From contig JAGGDU010000205.1 of assembly GCA_018457135.1 (NCBI GenBank), positions 8,085 through 72,084 of the forward strand: a stretch of DNA of 64,000 bases, in the 5' to 3' direction. This document shows, in pieces, positions 45,936 to 64,000 of this stretch. Position numbers and translations under genes: made by a program. Every line of letters starts with the position of its first letter. The stretch's first letter is position 1. The DNA comes from Trichodesmium erythraeum GBRTRLIN201 (lineage in GTDB: Bacteria > Cyanobacteriota > Cyanobacteriia > Cyanobacteriales > Microcoleaceae). The notes under the pieces are model-generated. The model did not search any database. It saw nothing but the letters and a program-made list of their open reading frames with translations, and was not told where the DNA came from.

Positions 45936-47144
45936 ATGAAAATCTTAATGCTTTCCTCTACTTTTCCTTATCCTCCTAGCAAAGGCGGTACACAAGTTAG
46001 AACATTTAATCTACTGAAATTTTTGAGCAAGAAACACTCTGTTACTTTGCTAACACAAAGCTCTCCAGATGTCAATAATTTAGAAGTAGATTCATTGAGA
46101 TCTTATGTAGAAGAATTGGCCATATTTCCCCGCCCTCAAGAGCCTAAAAAAGGAAATTTTGCAAAACTAAGACGTTTTAGTAATTTTATAATAGAAGGTA
46201 CTCCACCCAGCGTTATCTCTATATATTCGCCAGAAATGCAAAAGTGGGTAGATGAGTTTGTGGGAGCAGGTAGATGTGAGGCCATTACTTGCGAACATTC
46301 CGTTAATGAAATTTATATTCGTCATCAATGGCAGGAGAAAGTCAAAACCCTAGTTAATGTCCACAGTTCAGTTTATGGCACTTGTCGGCAACAGTTGGAA
46401 ACTGGCATAGCAGAGAAGCCTTTGCGAGATAGACTGAATCTTCCCCTACTCCTGCGTTATGAAAAACGTTATTGCTCAAAATTTTCCTTTATAATTGCCA
46501 CAACTGAAGAAGATGGGAAACAACTAAAGGAATTTAGCCCCAATAGTCAAATTTCAGTTATTCCGAATGGGGTAGATCTTAGTCATTTTCCTTGTCGTAG
46601 TAGCGACCCAGGAGGAAAGCAATTAATTTTTGTGGGAGCTATAGATAATTTTCCTAATATTGATGCAGTTCGGTTTCTGACTCTAGAGATATTGCCTAGG
46701 GTACAAGAACGTTATCCTGATACAACCTTAGCATTGGTAGGGGCAAGACCAGTACGAGAAGTACAGGAATATTCGACTCGCCCAGGGGTAAAAGTTACGG
46801 GCCGCGTACCTTCAATAGCAGAATATTTACATCAGGCTACAATTTGTGTAATTCCTATGCGCACTGGTTTTGGAATTAAAAATAAAACCTTAGAGGCAAT
46901 GGCAGCAGGTACACCTGTTGTGGCCAGCAATCGTGGTTTGGAAGGATTAGCAGTTGATGGTGCAGGTAAACCACTAAGAGCATTAAGGGCAAATTATGTA
47001 GAAGAATATGTAGAAGCCATTGGTCGGTTATTTGAGGATAGGCAGTTAAGACAAACGTTGTCAGAAAACGGGCGATCACTGGTAGAAACCGAGTATACTT
47101 GGAAAATTCAAGGTCAGCGGTATGAAAGGGTATTACTAGGATAA
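45936..47144 (+). CDS. Family 4 glycosyltransferase
   Basis: The 402-residue GT-B enzyme opens KILMLSSTFPYPPSKGGTQV, with the acceptor-side Gly-rich loop. It has SVIPNGVDLSHFP near the domain boundary, LIFVGAIDNFPNIDA, VTGRVPSIAEYL, and the nucleotide-sugar-binding E-x7-E region (KNKTLEAMAAGTPVVASNRG). It probably adds a sugar during exopolysaccharide or glycolipid assembly. Its stop overlaps the start of the next gene (TAATG), so the two are translationally coupled. The acceptor cannot be read from sequence. Confidence 0.92.
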   Translation: MKILMLSSTFPYPPSKGGTQVRTFNLLKFLSKKHSVTLLTQSSPDVNNLEVDSLRSYVEELAIFPRPQEPKKGNFAKLRRFSNFIIEGTPPSVISIYSPEMQKWVDEFVGAGRCEAITCEHSVNEIYIRHQWQEKVKTLVNVHSSVYGTCRQQLETGIAEKPLRDRLNLPLLLRYEKRYCSKFSFIIATTEEDGKQLKEFSPNSQISVIPNGVDLSHFPCRSSDPGGKQLIFVGAIDNFPNIDAVRFLTLEILPRVQERYPDTTLALVGARPVREVQEYSTRPGVKVTGRVPSIAEYLHQATICVIPMRTGFGIKNKTLEAMAAGTPVVASNRGLEGLAVDGAGKPLRALRANYVEEYVEAIGRLFEDRQLRQTLSENGRSLVETEYTWKIQGQRYERVLLG

Positions 47145-48754
47145 TGAAAAAAAAGATTTACAACTCCAAAGTTAGTTACATACAAGAGAAATCTCCTAAG
47201 GCTTTTCAAACAGTTGAGAAAAACTATTATCCTAGAACTAGAAAAGCTACACAAATTAGTCAAATTACCTCTACTACAAAATCTAGGAGACGTCGCAGAC
47301 GACCATCTCAGTCTCAAAAACTTTCGTTGAAATTGCTATCTTTACCTTGGCGGAAATGGATAATTGAATGGATAGGAATTACTTTGTTATTTGGTGGTTC
47401 TAGTTTAATGGCAGTGGGAGCATGGCTTAGTGTCAAGTTAATTTCTGATCCAAACGCTATGGTCTTATTCAATCAAATATTACCACAATGGACTCAATTC
47501 TACATATCTGGGAATAAATCTTTAAAAACTCTTGAGCAAATTAAATCTAATATTAAAGAAGAAGGGTTTAGCTCTGGAAAAACTTTTTCTCTTCCTAATA
47601 AAACAACAGATTCTAGTTCAGATCTATTAGTGCCAGTAATGAAGCAAATTGAATCTAGAGCATCTTTGCCCTGTGAAACTCCCTGTCGGGAAGTAGTAGA
47701 ATTGCGGGTCTATCAATCAGTTTTATCTGTTAATCAACGAGAAGGCAGTAAACCATATTTTCGATTAGTTAATAAATTACCACTAGAAGGTCCGGCTGAA
47801 TCTTTTGTAATTGAATCTACTATTGAATCTGCTTCTGCTCTTCTAGGTTCAAATCAACCTTTACCTATAACAACAGTACGTCAGTTTCAAGGCAAAGTTC
47901 CTGCCTCAGGAGTTTGGTTTACTGTCAGTGGTCAGAGATTACAAAATAATAAAGCTATTCCTTATGGGCAAATTATTAATTATAATCCCACTAGAAATTA
48001 CTTAAGTTCCATGTTGGAGTGGAAAAGTGCTGCTGGTCAAGCTCCGATCTGGCAGGAAATGACTGGTGGGGAAGATCCAGAACTAGTGATCGAGCAAACT
48101 GTGGGGTTAGATCCTAATTTTGATATTTATTGGATTCAACCGCGAAAGTTTATACTTAATCCCATTGAGTTGGAGAAAATTTCCCTTGATGAAACTCCTA
48201 TTGGGGATGCATATTATAGAGATGCTCTGGGGTTAGCTCGTAATGGTTTATGGTCTCCTGCTTTTCCTTTAATTGAACCTTTGCGAAAGAATTTAATAAA
48301 TAAATCTAAATGGTCGAAAAAGGCACAAGCTCAGTTTGATTTGATTAAGTTTCATGCCAATATTACAGAAGCTCAGGCGATCGCCTCCTGGGCAAGCCCA
48401 AGTCAAAAAGTTTTAGCTGGTTTAATAGATGGTCGTTGGCAACAAAGTCTAGATGTGTTTGAAAATAATTTGAGCAGCAATTATGATATTGCTAAATTAC
48501 TGCAAAATGATACTGGTCGTCTCCGCAAAAGAGTTGACGCAACTATTAAAGTAAATAGAGAGGAAATGAATGCGATAGCTTGGGGTACTCTAATTGTCGC
48601 AAGTCAAAAAGGCCGAAAAAGGGCAATGTCATGGTTAAATAAACAACCATCTACTAGCAAACAGGCAAAGGAAAAGATTGAAAAATTATTGGATCAACTA
48701 GATGCTGCTTTTGTAAAAGAGGAGAATATATACAAAAATCAAATTCAGCGATGA
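47144..48754 (+). CDS. Conserved cyanobacterial single-span membrane protein
   Basis: The 536-residue protein has a basic N-terminal region (SRRRRRRPSQSQK near residue 48), a hydrophobic span near residues 72-98 (GITLLFGGSSLMAVGAWLSV), and a large extracytoplasmic part. That part contains LPCETPCREVVELRVYQS near residue 183, with two close cysteines, and a segment RDALGLARNGLWSPAFPLIEP near 354. I recognise no enzyme motif. Coupling to the GT4 gene (overlapping stop and start) ties it to surface polysaccharide work, perhaps as an envelope or secretion factor, but that is inference. A HIP1 site lies in the 3' part. Confidence 0.75.
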   Translation: MKKKIYNSKVSYIQEKSPKAFQTVEKNYYPRTRKATQISQITSTTKSRRRRRRPSQSQKLSLKLLSLPWRKWIIEWIGITLLFGGSSLMAVGAWLSVKLISDPNAMVLFNQILPQWTQFYISGNKSLKTLEQIKSNIKEEGFSSGKTFSLPNKTTDSSSDLLVPVMKQIESRASLPCETPCREVVELRVYQSVLSVNQREGSKPYFRLVNKLPLEGPAESFVIESTIESASALLGSNQPLPITTVRQFQGKVPASGVWFTVSGQRLQNNKAIPYGQIINYNPTRNYLSSMLEWKSAAGQAPIWQEMTGGEDPELVIEQTVGLDPNFDIYWIQPRKFILNPIELEKISLDETPIGDAYYRDALGLARNGLWSPAFPLIEPLRKNLINKSKWSKKAQAQFDLIKFHANITEAQAIASWASPSQKVLAGLIDGRWQQSLDVFENNLSSNYDIAKLLQNDTGRLRKRVDATIKVNREEMNAIAWGTLIVASQKGRKRAMSWLNKQPSTSKQAKEKIEKLLDQLDAAFVKEENIYKNQIQR

Positions 48755-49823: not shown

Positions 49824-50798
49824 TTAATCAGGTATATAGCCAATCTTTTTTAAATTGTTGTAAGTACCTTTTGCAAATCCTTGTATTTTATCTTGATGAC
49901 CTTTTCTTGCTGTCTTTGCTGATTTTTCTAAATTTTCCCATGTCAGCTTTTTACCTGGTTTTCGCCAATATTCAATTGCTTTCCATGCCTCATTTCCTCC
50001 TCTTATATTGTTACGCTGGAAAGCTTGTTGGATTTCCTCTTCTGTTTCTACTGTTAACAAATTAACTCTTTGTAGTTGATTAGATTCACGATCAATAGCT
50101 TCTAAATATCGATTTAAAGCTGTTTTATTTTTTGCTAATATATCTAAAGCTTCCTGCTTAGATAGATTACTAATTTTTTGACGTATAATTTCTAGTTTAT
50201 TATTCAGAATTTCCTCAATTTCTGTGATATTTGTTTTTGGTAATAACTGGTTAACTTTACTTTCAATATTCTCCAGTTTTTGCTCTATGATCTTATTTTC
50301 TTGAGATTGATAATCAATAGGAGATGATGCATTTAATCGATCTAACTTTGTTGTTATTAATTGCAATTTTTGATCTAGCAGCTTATCTAAATTACTTAAA
50401 TTGATTCTACCTTCTTCTTGAATTGTAGGAGCTTCAGATACAGGAGAAATATTTCTAGGAATTTTCATAAAGTCCTCAGATATAGGATAAATATTCCTGA
50501 GCATTTTCACCTGTTCTTCTAACACATCTGCTTTATGACCTTCAATAATAAATGCTCCTATTCTTTCCCCATCACGAGGATTTATTTCTTTTGCTCTAAG
50601 TGCAGCATAATACTCAAAATGTCCGTTAACTACTTCGTAAGATTCCCAACCAATAGTACGTACAACTAGAGGTTTAATTGTACCTTCAGCTTTTAAAATT
50701 AACCGAGCAACTTGTTCTAAATCTGACTCTGAAAACTCGGAACGAGATACATTAGAAGTAATTTCTTTTACAAGTAAAAATTCTGGAGATAATAACAT
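49824..50798 (-). CDS. ParB-like protein, partner of nuclease-ParA fusion
   Basis: The 324-residue protein has an N-terminal ParB/Srx-like domain: VKEITSNVSRSEFSESDLEQ, then IKPLVVRTIGWESYEVVNGH and FEYYAALRAKEI, about residues 8-85. A long helical middle follows (about 130-235; LDKLLDQKLQLITTKLDRL and similar heptads). The C-terminal region (about 235-324) is rich in Lys/Arg and contains GNEAWKAIEYWRKPGKKLTW and TARKGHQDKIQGFAKGTYNN, possibly DNA-binding. Its start codon overlaps the stop of the upstream gene in TAATG, so the two are translationally coupled. It lacks a clear central HTH of chromosomal ParB. Role: centromere-like binding for the adjacent ParA, or target recognition for its nuclease domain (inference). 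Confidence 0.78.
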   Translation of the reverse strand: MLLSPEFLLVKEITSNVSRSEFSESDLEQVARLILKAEGTIKPLVVRTIGWESYEVVNGHFEYYAALRAKEINPRDGERIGAFIIEGHKADVLEEQVKMLRNIYPISEDFMKIPRNISPVSEAPTIQEEGRINLSNLDKLLDQKLQLITTKLDRLNASSPIDYQSQENKIIEQKLENIESKVNQLLPKTNITEIEEILNNKLEIIRQKISNLSKQEALDILAKNKTALNRYLEAIDRESNQLQRVNLLTVETEEEIQQAFQRNNIRGGNEAWKAIEYWRKPGKKLTWENLEKSAKTARKGHQDKIQGFAKGTYNNLKKIGYIPD

Positions 50799-52240
50799 TA
50801 TTGTAGTCCAATTTTGTTTAATACTTCTTTTGCTAATGACTCAAACTCTTGGGAAGAAGAAGAATCTAGTGCATAGTCAAATATAGAGCTAGGTTCAGGT
50901 ATCAACAAATTTCCAACTTCACGAGTTTTATCAACACACCTAGCAAGTTCTTCTCTTTGAAATATAACCGTTTCCATAATATTAAGATCGTAACGCTTAG
51001 AAACTGCTTGAATCTGTTTTGGTAATGTATGTTGTACAAATCTATGATTAGGGTTAATTTTACAAGGCAGTACACCTAATATTTCTATATCTGGTTTATT
51101 CATCATTTGCCGAAAGGGGTTAACATCCCGCTGAAGATAATTTTTAACATTAAATAAACCTTGATTAGCAAATGGTTTTAAGTCTGAAGGAATAATTAAA
51201 TAGTTAGCACTGACTAAAGGAACAAAGGCATATAAATTCAAAGAAGGTGGGGTATCTATTAGAACAACATCATATTTTTCTTCTACGAGTTTTAATTTTT
51301 TTATTAGTGCAGTTTGAGTACTTCTTAGACCGTTCAACTCACCTTCAACATCCATTAAATTTATATGAGAAGGAACTACATCAATTTCTGGATCATTAAA
51401 CCTAGAAACTCTAGATACTTCCGAAATACTAGAATATTCATCATACCTCAAAACATGATAAATATAGGAGTCTTTTATATCATCAAATTGCTCATCACTA
51501 AATTTAATTAGACCGGTTGCAAAAGTTGTATTCGCCTGACTATCTAAGTCTATAACCAAAACTCGATAACCTTTTTTACTCAATGCAGCAGCTAAATTAA
51601 CTACTGTTGTCGTTTTTCCAACTCCACCTTTATTATGATAAACAGCGATTACTTTCATCGAATTAATACTATTTTTATTCATTTCATTTACCTTATTTTC
51701 AGGGGTGTTGATAAGATTTTTTTCTGTCTTATATTGAGTAGTGTTTGCGTGACTTAACCCTGCTTCTTCTAGACGAATTTCCGGTTGCTCAGAACTCACA
51801 TTTTTACCCAAATAATCTCGACCTACTAATGCTTTAATTTCTTCTATTTTGTAATCGACTTCACTTCCCCAACACTTAAATACTAACTTAATGTCATTTT
51901 TTTCTCTCTTATAAATCCTAATTTCTTTAGCATTAGTTAACAAGCCATATTTTACATTCAAACTTGTTAAATATCGCCTAATTTGTCGTTGATGGCGGTC
52001 TAAATTTTTTTTTGGGTGTTTTGCCTCCATTACTAAAGCTAAAGGATAGTCTCCATTCAAAGAGAAAGGTAATTCCTGAGCAGCAAATGATAAAAAGTCT
52101 AAACGGATATTACCTAAGGTCACTTCTTGATGCCAATGTTCGAGACTGTATCCTAATTTCGGCAGTAGATAACTAACAATTAGTTTGCTTTCTACTTCGC
52201 TTTCATTGCGACATAAATCTGGATTAAAACTGAAGCTCAT
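50798..52240 (-). CDS. Fusion of restriction-type PD-(D/E)XK nuclease domain and ParA ATPase
   Basis: This 480-residue protein joins two domains. Residues 1-145 match the N-terminal nuclease domain of type I restriction R subunits: an early helix with Glu17 (ESEVESKLIVSYLLPKLGY), Asp48 (IRLDFLSF), Glu72-x-Lys74 (VMEAKHPKK), and YGLLTNAKEIRIY. The PD-(D/E)XK residues are all in place. A polar linker (about 145-194) leads to a complete ParA: Walker A KGGVGKTTTV at 204-213, A' motif DLDSQANTTF, and Walker B DVVLIDTPPSLN, followed by NYLIIPSDLKPFANQGL. The ParA part would normally begin at Met195 (MKVIAVYHNKGG); no good ribosome binding site precedes that Met, so the long form is preferred. It is coupled to the ParB-like gene. 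A partitioning system with its own nuclease could be plasmid- or phage-directed. Confidence 0.85.
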   Translation of the reverse strand: MSFSFNPDLCRNESEVESKLIVSYLLPKLGYSLEHWHQEVTLGNIRLDFLSFAAQELPFSLNGDYPLALVMEAKHPKKNLDRHQRQIRRYLTSLNVKYGLLTNAKEIRIYKREKNDIKLVFKCWGSEVDYKIEEIKALVGRDYLGKNVSSEQPEIRLEEAGLSHANTTQYKTEKNLINTPENKVNEMNKNSINSMKVIAVYHNKGGVGKTTTVVNLAAALSKKGYRVLVIDLDSQANTTFATGLIKFSDEQFDDIKDSYIYHVLRYDEYSSISEVSRVSRFNDPEIDVVPSHINLMDVEGELNGLRSTQTALIKKLKLVEEKYDVVLIDTPPSLNLYAFVPLVSANYLIIPSDLKPFANQGLFNVKNYLQRDVNPFRQMMNKPDIEILGVLPCKINPNHRFVQHTLPKQIQAVSKRYDLNIMETVIFQREELARCVDKTREVGNLLIPEPSSIFDYALDSSSSQEFESLAKEVLNKIGLQ

Positions 52241-62235: not shown

Positions 62236-63174
62236 CTAAAGTAACTTAGTACCTATATAGCCAATGATTATTTTTCCTGGTCCTAACTCTTCAGAAAAAT
62301 AAAGTCGCCAAGCACCAGGAGTCATCCGTAGATGCCAACTAAAAAGACTTTCTTTAGTATCCGGACATTTAATAGTTAGTTCTTGTCTAAACTTTTGAAT
62401 TCTTGAGTCACTTTCTGGAGTTGTTTTGCTTGGTAAAATATTGGGATTAAAAGCTCCATTTTTCCAAAGTTTACAGTATTTTTCTAAGTCTAATAACCGT
62501 TTCTTTATTTGTTGCAAAATTAAGTCGCCACTCTTTAGTTGTTGTAACTGTTGTTCTACTTGTTCACAGAAGATTAAATTCGGAAAAAATTCTTGTCTTC
62601 TTTCCCATAAGACTTCTCCATCAACTTGCCCGGCAAATAATTTATTTTCGATGTGGTTTTTAATCCATTCGGTATGTTGTTTTACATGGCGACTGCGACT
62701 AGCATGAACAATTTTTTCGGACTGGTCAATTAACTCTATATTTTCGTCTAATTCTGTTACCTGAATATCCAAAAAATCTGTATCCCATTTGGGTTCAGAT
62801 AATAAACTAACCGCAAGATAATCACTAATTAAAGCAAAATGAAGACCCTCTACTAATGTTCCTTGATGCCGAACTTCAGACACATCAAATTTATTTTTAA
62901 TTTCTGGGACAACATCCTCACAAAAAGGAGCTTTTAGAGTTAGACTACGGAAAAATCTACGCTCCTCTAAATCTACTATTTTGTCGTTACGCAAACTTGC
63001 TATAGGATAATCACAAACAAGTTCTATATTGTTAATATTACTGTGAGTCCGAAGTATCAGTCTTATACCTAGGCTTTTTACTTGGCGTAAAGTTTGAATT
63101 AACTCTGACATTAATTTTTGCGCTGTGGAAATATCAGCAATAGGAGTCTGTAGAGAAAGTTCATTAAGCGCCAT
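62236..63174 (-). CDS. Partner protein of the adjacent DUF3696-type ATPase
   Basis: The 312-residue protein has no recognised catalytic motif. The N-terminal third is beta-rich (LGIRLILRTHSNINNIELVC). The middle (about 150-240) is helical with QTEWIKNHIENKLFAGQVDG-like content. The C-terminal end reads WHLRMTPGAWRLYFSEELGP and IIGYIGTKLL; the YIGxKL close is reminiscent of small domains in toxin-like proteins, a weak resemblance. It starts 17 bp after the ATPase gene, so the two form an operon. By analogy with two-gene ATPase/effector cassettes it could be the effector of a defence or toxin system; this is inference. Confidence 0.6.
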   Translation of the reverse strand: MALNELSLQTPIADISTAQKLMSELIQTLRQVKSLGIRLILRTHSNINNIELVCDYPIASLRNDKIVDLEERRFFRSLTLKAPFCEDVVPEIKNKFDVSEVRHQGTLVEGLHFALISDYLAVSLLSEPKWDTDFLDIQVTELDENIELIDQSEKIVHASRSRHVKQHTEWIKNHIENKLFAGQVDGEVLWERRQEFFPNLIFCEQVEQQLQQLKSGDLILQQIKKRLLDLEKYCKLWKNGAFNPNILPSKTTPESDSRIQKFRQELTIKCPDTKESLFSWHLRMTPGAWRLYFSEELGPGKIIIGYIGTKLL

Positions 63175-63191
63175 TTCTAAATCTATATTTA

Positions 63192-64000
63192 TTATTCCCT
63201 GGGTTCCAAAAGAGCTTCTAAACTATTATCCCACTCATCAAAAAAACCTTCTGGCCATTTATCGATCCGTCCGTTTCGATCTATCTGTGGGGATATAACT
63301 TCAGTGATAAATTCTCTTCCTCGTTTTTGGCTGTCAAAATAGTGTAATTGAACTTTTTTAGGGTCAACTTTTTCTCTATAAACTATTAATCTAATTCCAT
63401 TTAAAACATGGTCGCTGTGAGTTTCAACTACAATTTGCATTCCACAACTAGCAGCAAGAGCTAATAATTCTCCCATTTTTGCTTGACCTTTCGGATGAAG
63501 ATGTGCCTCAGGATTTTCTATTATAATTAAAGTTTCTGGTGGGGATGAAAGAATAGCTACAATAATTGGTAAAGTGTAACTAATTCCAAATCCAACATTA
63601 GTAGAACGATAAGGGTTACTATCTCCATAATAATATTGAAGACTGATTAAATCTATATCTTGTTTAACATTTATTTGTAAGTGTGTACCAGGGCTAATTT
63701 CTCCCATCCAAGCTTCAACTTGATCTCTTAAAACTAGGGATTTTGCTTGTGAATGTCCTAAGCTACGATTTGGTATAGTTTTACTTTCATTTACAGATAA
63801 AAAATGGGCTGTGTATTCTCCTTTAGTGGCTAAATTTTCTAGTTGTTGAAATTGGAAATATGACATTTATAAAAATAAGTGAGGACCTAAACATTCAGCT
63901 TGCAGATAGTGAATTTTTTTATTAAAAAGACTGGATTTATAAATATTAAAAGCAACAGATGGCGAGTTAAGATTTAGAACATCTTTTTCTCGGTCATAAG
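63192..64000 (-). pseudogene. DUF3696-type AAA/ABC-like ATPase, C-terminal part, with in-frame stop
   Basis: The readable C-terminal 224 residues contain the signature loops of OLD/DUF3696-type ATPases: FGISYTLPIIVAIL, ETLIIIENPEAHLHPKGQAK (Walker B and D-loop) and IVVETHSDHVLNGIRLIVY (His switch). Immediately upstream, in the same frame, a TAA (63867-63869) follows IHYLQAECLGPHLFL. That stretch is also family sequence (HYLxAERLGPR in relatives) and continues to the window edge. The gene is therefore interrupted by one stop codon, and the N-terminal Walker A part lies outside the window. It may be a recent pseudogene, or the downstream part may be made from ATG 63866. The partner gene follows 17 bp downstream. 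Confidence 0.75.

Follow-up and report, generated by a model that had tools for sequence, protein, structure and literature searches.

A ParA ATPase with a putative HsdR-type nuclease domain and an exchanged ParA-ParB core in filamentous cyanobacteria

Many filamentous cyanobacteria carry a predicted ParA ATPase armed with a restriction-type nuclease domain and coupled to a ParB-like partner. We analyzed one such operon in a window of 64,000 nucleotides, by which we mean the whole stretch of DNA studied, from Trichodesmium erythraeum GBRTRLIN201. For these predicted proteins, comparison with homologues shows the architecture, the invariance of the putative catalytic residues, the coupling of the two genes, the stable location of the loci, the absence of the nuclease from some relatives, and the exchange of the ParA domain and the ParB-like partner, as a core, around a resident putative nuclease domain. 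This mosaic pattern tells the matched parts of the operon (ParA domain and ParB) from the resident part (nuclease), and therefore specificity should be testable through natural core swaps. A spatial-organization ATPase and a restriction-type nuclease are here united, a combination whose joint description was not found in the literature searched and which matters for how cyanobacteria organize and protect their many chromosome copies, a poorly understood matter.

All features of the operon lie on the reverse strand. The reading frame of the nuclease-ParA fusion (50798..52240, 480 aa, ATG start) is followed by that of the partner (49824..50798, 324 aa, ATG start), and base 50798 is common to the TAA stop of the former and the ATG of the latter, in agreement with the stop-start overlap described in a first-pass annotation of this DNA. 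That annotation had also proposed a survey of co-occurrence, and the pairing is indeed conserved: of the 68 named loci without interruption, 67 have the partner gene downstream of the fusion, the 80 named loci being the best 80 of 176 by nuclease similarity. The surroundings of the window locus are housekeeping and glycan genes.

The N-terminal domain of the fusion (residues 1-150, 51791..52240), the resident part of the operon, is a predicted HsdR-type PD-(D/E)XK nuclease. Pfam family HSDR_N_2 matches residues 19-116 (E 4.3e-6, 27.2 bits against a cut-off of 25), with the sister model HSDR_N below its own cut-off (18.2 against 25.1). The residues D48 and E72-x-K74 sit where they had been assigned from the sequence and, together with Y90, are invariant in 46/46 clade-I proteins (54 fused proteins less 8 duplicate loci) and in 10/10 clade-II proteins, the two clades being only 33-37% identical. 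The AF2 model of the domain (mean pLDDT 75.6, residues 50-65 badly modeled) scored highest in VIA-align against HsdR 3h1t, at Z 7.2, and the type IIG enzyme BpuSI, at Z 6.9, values below 8 that alone are only suggestive; EcoR124I HsdR reached Z 5.8, with unrelated folds close behind (a flavoprotein at Z 5.8, PolG2 at Z 5.3). Foldseek returned no match to this model at E<=0.001, its first row being a CoaBC domain and 3h1t standing at rank 9. The structural check suggested earlier for this domain leans towards a nuclease, with 3h1t and BpuSI as best matches, without being decisive.

The first-pass annotation had considered a translation start at Met195, where the ParA domain begins, which would leave the upstream frame unexpressed. 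A methionine is present there, but such an artefact can hardly be the explanation. In 63 homologues, identity to the window protein over residues 1-160 is 57-79%, an alignment of 64 rows holds 46 invariant columns over the N-terminal domain, and residues 1-150 are, judged by dN/dS values of 0.19-0.35 against four relatives, under purifying selection; this conservation and selection contradict both a Met195 start and chance. Furthermore, the same fusion layout recurs in the divergent clade II. Residues 151-194 (51659..51790) form a fast-evolving linker, with 32-45% identity to four close relatives.

The ParA ATPase domain (residues 195-480 and stop, 50798..51658), part of the exchanged core, has a Walker A motif with the signature lysine. 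AAA_31/ParA covers residues 195-370 (E 1.2e-52), Soj/ParA entries are among the PDB matches of the fusion, and the signature lysines K204 and K209, located as in the first-pass annotation, are invariant in 46/46 fused homologues. D329 is also invariant, and the full ParA domain claimed earlier is borne out. No significant helicase family was found by Pfam in the 480 residues, ResIII matching the Walker A region at no better than E 0.077. The other part of the core, the partner's predicted ParB-CTPase-fold domain (residues 1-107, 50478..50798), matches ParB_N at residues 18-69 (E 2.5e-6, 27.9 bits against a cut-off of 26.3), and the N-terminal model aligns with ParB 7bnr at Z 12.5 over 93 residues (rmsd 2.9). 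The label ParB-like thus holds for the N-terminal fold but not for a helix-turn-helix domain: searches for HTH families gave nothing for the window partner (E<=1) and nothing for 8 relatives (E<=0.1). An unstructured stretch follows ParB_N in the AF2 model, and then a long helical middle (residues 135-242, 50073..50396), modeled at low to moderate confidence (pTM 0.39 for the whole model). A GmrSD match (E 0.012) falls in this helical middle and was dismissed. The C-terminal module (49827..50072) may be of the ComEA helix-hairpin-helix DNA-binding type, given a weak match to ComEA 8dss (Z 4.3, 64 residues, 28% identity). Partners in other relatives carry Rho_N/SAP or HhH_6-like C-terminal modules; a rough text pattern divides 73 partners approximately into 56 HhH_6-like, 6 LTWENL, 6 Rho_N/SAP and 5 outside these classes. 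Two clade-II partners have no Pfam ParB_N match at E<=0.001, so that the kinship of these two to the partner of the window rests on position, layout and by-eye similarity. Together, these observations support a full ParA domain that is fused to a nuclease, apparently intact, and coupled to a ParB-fold partner.

Exchange of the core is seen in pairwise distances among the named loci, which supplied 78 nuclease, 69 ParA and 73 ParB sequences. ParA-domain and ParB_N distances are strongly correlated (Mantel rho 0.89, n=69), and those of the nuclease and the ParA domain, in this sample chosen by nuclease similarity, give rho 0.27, a linkage that is loosened and not absent, since the value lies above its 199 shuffles. 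Nuclease distances correlate with those of the flanking desaturase (rho 0.85, n=30), ileS (0.87, n=12) and neighboring ParA (0.86, n=21) genes, and ParA-domain distances give rho -0.09 with ileS (n=12) and 0.00 with the neighboring ParA (n=19). A second sample, chosen by ParB similarity and sharing some organisms with the first, showed a like pattern (ParA versus ParB_N rho 0.87, n=26; nuclease versus ParA 0.21). At loci with a desaturase neighbor, mainly from Oscillatoriales, the core tracks the flanks (ParA versus desaturase rho 0.77, n=28).

Among 19 Nostoc loci, ParA is less than 70% identical in 104 of 150 pairs whose nuclease domains are at least 85% identical. When the DNA of Nostoc JL34 is compared with that of CHAB 5824, identity is about 88-93% in flanking blocks and 86-96% in nuclease-domain windows, drops to 44-74% over the ParA domain and ParB, and returns to 90-96% just beyond parB. 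Between JL34 and XA010, core windows are 96-100% identical, upstream and nuclease-domain windows 90-98% and downstream ones 91-96%, a pattern suggesting that the core was recently transferred. In two Nostoc pairs, L106-L128 and L106-L118, the flanks align on both sides, and paralogy was therefore rejected as the cause of their mosaic. The nuclease dS in Nostoc (0.52) is below that of flanking genes (0.82 and 0.85, from just 2 and 4 gene pairs). One ParA allele class (single linkage, 80%) is common to Nostoc, Calothrix, Scytonema, Mojavia, Goleter and Kastovskya; loci of conflict or recognition typically show such sharing of diverged alleles, at a single locus, across genera. That the nuclease stays constant in several groups while ParA-ParB is swapped between species hints at a role in recognizing self and non-self DNA. 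The exchanged unit is not always ParA plus ParB, as the window and loci L072 and L009 have ParA domains 97-99% identical (dS 0-0.10), with nuclease domains at 79% (dS 0.36) and a ParB dS of 0.23-0.26.

Of 386 cyanobacterial genomes sampled, 60 contain the nuclease domain, 59 of them with a single match; this set is not identical with the genomes of all named loci. Five of the 61 matches lie in frames shorter than 300 aa, all of which run into or precede ParA sequence, and free-standing nuclease domains are rare, L142 being the one locus among the 80 named that shows the nuclease domain by itself. By its distribution the fusion is old and chromosomal, the loci studied occupying stable places in the chromosome; one clade-II pair has on its two sides the genes that flank clade-I pairs in Nostocales. 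The first-pass annotation had held that homologues with the two domains separate and unlinked would tell against its reading. Nuclease-free homologues do exist, but unfused ParA-ParB pairs nest within the fused clade and are for that reason read as repeated losses of the nuclease. Such pairs persist in about four lineages, so the core has some role without cutting. Homologues are broken near the Walker A motif in L085, L098, L194 and L124/L197, and further on in L193, L196 and L071. Most of the junctions are indels that differ in place and are unrelated to one another, so these copies were read as decay or assembly errors and a programmed frameshift was rejected. The breaks in L085 and L098 are at about one spot.

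The reading that we favor, although we hold it to be somewhat short of probable, is that of a chromosomal ParA-ParB DNA-tracking module with its own nuclease, whose matched core aims cleavage in conflicts between self and non-self replicons. ParA would act as an ATP-dependent dimer on DNA, and the ParB-fold partner as an NTP-switched DNA binder with an HhH-like or Rho_N/SAP tail in place of a helix-turn-helix; binding to each other and to DNA, the two would make up a matched core for recognition. Once this core assembles on a target, the HsdR-type domain carried by ParA would cut DNA, its activity being controlled by ParA and ParB, and the core would have diversified because it recognizes, or has to avoid, other replicons, whether plasmids, phages or foreign chromosomal DNA. 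A more pointed form, which we advance tentatively, is polymorphic replicon surveillance, in which an interchangeable ParA-ParB core aims the resident HsdR-type nuclease and the diverse alleles define self DNA; partition machinery would then do the recognizing for a system of immunity or incompatibility. Elimination of foreign replicons, one of the functions first suggested for this locus, is the favored possibility because the core is exchanged around the resident nuclease domain. Against it stand the persistence of nuclease-free pairs, the core that tracks the flanks at desaturase loci, the cases in which the exchanged unit differs from ParA plus ParB, and the housekeeping and glycan genes around the window locus; core exchange could also arise by recombination without selection for novelty. 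PADLOC-DB also gives little for it: the fusion had no full-length match (the best, PDC-M28B, spans residues 186-234 only; mad2, at E 2e-6, matches residues 35-120), the partner had nothing better than E 0.014, and 8 of 10 tested window neighbors had no match at E<=1e-5, the other two (NsnB/NsnC) lying about 10 kb off.

The main rival is partition or positioning of the chromosome (nucleoid) in polyploid filamentous cyanobacteria, with ParA gradients moving ParB-bound DNA, an explanation that we find conceivable but rather doubtful; its corollaries, equally doubtful, are that the nuclease is an ancestral accessory trimming entangled or broken DNA and that the core diverges to avoid cross-talk with plasmid partition. 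Stable chromosomal loci with a single match in 59 of the 60 positive genomes, coevolution of ParA and ParB_N, and the persistence of nuclease-free pairs agree with partition, as does the window genome, where this pair is the only ParA-ParB_N operon detected and a frame of 123 residues gives the sole further ParB_N match. The restricted occurrence of the nuclease domain, the broken copies, partners with no detected HTH and the strong divergence of the core at a single locus within a genus, unusual for housekeeping partition, argue against it. So does the search for parS: the window genome has no canonical site at up to 1 mismatch and one place with 2 mismatches, and neither the repeats flanking the operon, looked for in the window and at three loci, nor the 9-mers compared across 23 upstream and 73 downstream regions gave anything convincing as a parS-like site. 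A parS of non-canonical sequence is possible at the locus. One downstream 9-mer is common to 19 of 73 loci.

A DNA repair or recombination device, in which the HhH-like or SAP tails would locate DNA ends or junctions for processing by an HsdR-like nuclease that ParA loads, seems unlikely to us. The tail types (Rho_N/SAP, HhH_6-like, ComEA-like) are known from binding of DNA structures and the nuclease is related to HsdR, but the distribution is patchy, none of the five nearest window neighbors is a repair gene, and core exchange around a resident nuclease is unexpected for repair enzymes. Less likely still is the remnant of a mobile element, in which a locus for partition or addiction, of plasmid or phage, would have become fixed in the chromosome. 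ParA with ParB is typical of plasmids and core segments move between species; nevertheless, the flanks are stable and nuclease-domain distances track them. The partner had no match at E<=1e-3 in 72,556 plasmid records, and none of the best 5000 plasmid records matched by the whole fusion covers 80% of it, the ParA part dominating the matches, so that the plasmid enrichment and the addiction hybrid once envisaged found no backing. The fused form was not seen in 50,697 phage records, searched with the nuclease domain only, and relatives of this domain were not confirmed in IMG/VR viral contigs; matches in these collections were ordinary ParA or HsdR/methylase relatives only. A plasmid or phage origin was rejected on these grounds.

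In line with the earlier statement that no named system is known to have this architecture, none was recognized in our literature and PADLOC searches, and known systems resemble parts of it. Like ParABS (Soj/Spo0J, plasmid ParA/ParB), the operon encodes a ParA with a deviant Walker A and signature lysine and an overlapping downstream gene with a predicted ParB-CTPase fold; unlike ParABS, its ParA bears a putative nuclease, its partners have HhH-like or Rho_N/SAP tails with no HTH found, and canonical parS was not found. Carboxysome positioning likewise employs a cyanobacterial ParA-family ATPase, McdA, with a partner, McdB; McdA PDB entries, however, match the fusion far worse than Soj (E 7e-7 against 9e-20), and here the partner has a ParB fold and a nuclease is present. 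Reuse of the ParB-CTPase fold beyond segregation has been described, including fusions to nuclease-type (HNH) domains, and among the ParB fusions detected there, ParB-DUF3850 alone was consistently beside parA (PMC12704722). In our operon, by contrast, it is ParA that bears the nuclease, and ParB ends in an HhH-like or Rho_N/SAP tail. Type I HsdR and type IIG BpuSI, the best VIA-align matches, share the N-terminal PD-(D/E)XK domain of the HSDR_N_2 family, but the fusion lacks the SF2 helicase motor of HsdR, the attached motor being a ParA ATPase, and neither hsdM nor hsdS is among the five nearest window neighbors. Finally, type I hsdS is a domain-shuffling locus, in which a resident effector and an exchanged recognition part occupy one locus; in the operon described here, the exchanged part is instead the ParA domain together with its ParB partner.

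The pair of genes proposed in the first-pass annotation is present in the window as two reverse-strand ORFs, one coding for a 480-residue nuclease-ParA fusion (50798..52240) and the other for its 324-residue partner (49824..50798), which overlap in TAATG with base 50798 in common. Pfam places an HSDR_N_2 domain at residues 19-116 of the fusion (E 4.3e-6, above cut-off), a ParA/AAA_31 domain at residues 195-370 (E 1.2e-52), and a ParB_N domain at residues 18-69 of the partner (E 2.5e-6, above cut-off). The contig is 92 kb long and the genome 7.22 Mb. To one side of the pair are a fatty acid desaturase and a PLP-dependent enzyme, which we read as threonine synthase; to the other are an ORF with no Pfam match, a glycosyltransferase and a pyruvyl transferase. 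A 536-residue ORF directly after the glycosyltransferase (47144-48754, forward strand) gave no Pfam hit at E≤0.001. Two reverse-strand ORFs about 10 kb away from the operon (62236-63866) form a candidate defence pair in PADLOC, one matching NsnC (E 2e-106) and the other NsnB in its C-terminal part (E 2e-84); the latter frame is missing the initial part of the profile.

The nuclease domain had been described as apparently intact, and D48, E72 and K74 are indeed invariant in 46/46 fused homologues, as are Y90 and the ParA signature lysines K204 and K209; the alignment of the N-terminal domain (64 rows) contains 46 invariant columns. In comparisons of the window with four relatives, the nuclease domain has a dN/dS of 0.19-0.35, the ParA domain 0.18-0.25 and the linker 0.25-0.94. 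The AF2 model of the nuclease domain (mean pLDDT 75.6, weak at residues 50-65) gave no Foldseek match at E≤0.001, and its best VIA-align matches were HsdR 3h1t (Z 7.2, rmsd 4.9, 121 residues) and BpuSI (Z 6.9), with EcoR124I HsdR at rank 5 (Z 5.8), where unrelated folds reach 5.8 and lower. Confidence in a nuclease assignment is moderate from the predicted fold alone and good when fold, profile and residues are taken together, and the domain appears to be real and under constraint.

The partner begins with a domain of ParB/Noc/KorB fold (7bnr, Z 12.5, 93 residues, rmsd 2.9), in agreement with its earlier reading as ParB-like, and the helical middle then claimed for it appears in the predicted model as a long helical region after ParB_N. 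The C-terminal module differs between relatives: some have Rho_N/SAP tails (Rho_N E 2.3e-12 and 1.5e-11), some an HhH_6-like tail (E 1.8e-4, below its cut-off), and that of the window weakly matches ComEA (Z 4.3, 28% over 64 residues). Two homologous loci, L092 and L109, have nearly identical ParB_N domains (distance 0.07) and different tails. Pfam revealed no helix-turn-helix domain in the window partner (E≤1) or in 8 relatives (E≤0.1).

Of 386 genomes sampled from the phylum, 60 matched the nuclease-domain profile, 47 of them strongly (E<1e-48) and the other 13 weakly; 59 of the 60 had a single match. The partner matched 55 of the 386. Cross-comparison of the two lists gave 50 genomes with both, 10 with the nuclease only, 5 with the partner only and 321 with neither. 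Of 61 genomes from the taxonomic family of the window, 51 gave a match at E≤1e-25, a count that takes in unfused and clade-II rows. Relatives of the nuclease domain are encoded by 176 stretches of the genome collection; among the best 80 of these, our named loci, all are cyanobacterial by title, and Okeania and Trichodesmium are the nearest to the window pair. The fusion is uninterrupted in 68 of the 80, with the partner downstream in 67 and the remaining locus stopping at the contig end; of the other 12, four run off the contig, two have a longer linker, five are interrupted and one (L142) shows the nuclease domain alone. Several copies are on multi-megabase contigs, such as the complete Microcoleus vaginatus chromosome and Planktothrix rubescens chromosome I. 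No relative of the nuclease domain was confirmed in viral contigs, and 72,556 plasmid records contained no match to the partner (E≤1e-3). Judged from these sequences, the nuclease-ParA and ParB combination is real and conserved. Frame-broken copies of the fusion (L085, L098, L194, L124, L196, L071 and L077; L085 and L098 at about the same position, immediately past Walker A) may represent either decay or assembly error.

A divergent second group, clade II (ten proteins, L181-L190, about 33-37% identity), has the same fusion with the catalytic residues kept in all ten, and forms one group (SH-aLRT 98) in a quick-method tree of 129 ParA domains rooted on other ParAs. Nine of its ten loci have a downstream partner, with tails of the same sorts as in clade I, the window-type fusions; none was found for L185 within the limits used. 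By eye, the distinct N-terminal domain of this partner resembles ParB; in Pfam, two such partners had no ParB_N match. Six nuclease-free ParA-ParB pairs, one of which (L193) has a long branch and a ParA frame joined to other sequence, are scattered in several places within clade I, and well-supported branches force at least three changes between fused and unfused states. Because the nuclease-free pairs nest at several places inside clade I, the fused state is probably the older.

For the clade-II pair L186 (genome G133), the flanking ileS/ParA and glycosyltransferase genes are those that also flank Nostocales clade-I pairs. A second, ordinary ParA-family ATPase (about 300 residues) is found near the fusion gene in 21 of the 80 named loci, mostly Nostocales, and adjoins two clade-II pairs (L147:6778-7662, L120:6789-7673, L186:7581-8507 and L184:5827-6813 are examples); it was on the opposite strand in all six loci inspected. 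An extra ParB-like gene, of the type that partners clade-II fusions, clusters in 21 named loci, most of them Microcoleus-type; L126:10768-11883 is an example, downstream of a clade-I pair and with no nuclease-ParA of its own beside it. Just downstream of one Nostoc pair is an AAA_21 and DUF4435 protein (L120:10194-11942, reverse strand), which we take to be OLD-like, a kind common in defence loci.

The operon is a mosaic. When distances among homologues were compared part against part (199 shuffles), the nuclease domain followed the desaturase (rho 0.85, n=30), ileS (0.87, n=12) and the neighbouring ParA gene (0.86, n=21), though not the downstream glycosyltransferase (0.22, n=12). The ParA domain followed ParB_N (0.89, n=69) and correlated poorly with the nuclease domain (0.27, n=69); in mostly Nostocales loci it did not follow ileS (-0.09, n=12) or the neighbouring ParA (0.00, n=19), and in mainly Oscillatoriales loci it correlated with the desaturase (0.77, n=28). 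In a sample picked by ParB similarity, overlapping in part with the organisms of the first, rho was 0.87 between ParA and ParB and 0.21 between nuclease and ParA (n=26).

Single loci show the same mosaic. Between Nostoc JL34 (L106) and CHAB 5824 (L128), DNA identity is about 88-93% in flanking blocks, 86-96% in nuclease-domain windows and 44-74% in the ParA domain and ParB, returning to 90-96% immediately past parB; Desmonostoc (L118) gives the same pattern against L106. Between L106 and XA010 (L135) the core is 96-100% identical, the upstream and nuclease-domain windows 90-98% and the downstream 91-96%, with one unaligned stretch directly after parB. In the two window-length comparisons with Nostoc punctiforme NIES-2108 (L112), downstream similarity is not regained at that position, and aligned blocks restart about 1 kb past its parB. 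Across 19 Nostoc loci, the nuclease domain has a median identity of 89%, against 59% in ParA and 51% in ParB_N, and ParA is below 70% in 104 of 150 pairs with nuclease identity of at least 85%. Within the Okeania/Trichodesmium group, L069, L071, L073 and L074 differ from the window with dS of 0.28-0.38 in the nuclease and 0.8-2.4 in the ParA domain; for L069 and L071, dS is 1.1-1.2 in ParB_N and falls back to about 0.2 in the ParB tail. L072/L009 are a counter-example to a fixed ParA and ParB exchange unit, with a ParA domain 97-99% identical to the window's (dS 0-0.10), a nuclease domain at 79% (dS 0.36) and ParB dS of 0.23-0.26. The distances and the DNA and dS comparisons therefore show that what is exchanged is in most cases the ParA domain along with its ParB or ParB_N, and at times the ParA domain, around a nuclease domain that stays resident in the operon.

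With ATP, ParA dimers bind DNA, and their ParB releases them; proteins of the ParB fold act as switches on DNA with CTP or other NTPs, and HsdR-type domains cut DNA. Going by the anatomy of the pair, a matched ParA-ParB core would assemble on DNA and bring the fused nuclease to it. Core alleles are diverse, common to several genera and mostly exchanged as matched pairs, and for this reason we favour a proposed role in the recognition or exclusion of other replicons. Chromosomal or nucleoid positioning stays a strong rival, since nuclease-free ParA-ParB pairs persist and the loci are stable.

As far as literature searches go, the combination is undescribed, in line with the earlier remark that no named system was known to have this architecture: titles and abstract openings on ParA with HSDR_N, nuclease fusions, anti-phage systems and cyanobacterial ParA/ParB, most subscription journals being outside their scope, held no recognisable description of the pair. 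In the parts covered, a survey of the ParB fold reports HNH fusions, with adjacency to parA consistent only for a DUF3850 fusion (PMC12704722); polyvalent proteins contain ParB-like DNases without ParA (PMC5512222); and the passages covered of a PD-(D/E)XK family survey contain no ParA fusion (PMC1913061). In Thermus thermophilus plasmid pHB5018c (L201), a ParA-ParB operon continues directly into an N-6 DNA methylase, a stretch of which resembles the window-type nuclease domain at 32.7% identity across residues 12-111 of the query; this is a separate case of partition genes adjoining a restriction-type enzyme. The pair resembles ParABS in its ParA-ParB kind but is not a member, with no helix-turn-helix found in the partner, and the fusion does not belong to type I restriction, having no helicase motor and no hsdM or hsdS among its five nearest neighbours. 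It is best described, on sequence grounds, as a variant of the ParA-ParB kind that is neither ParABS nor type I restriction.
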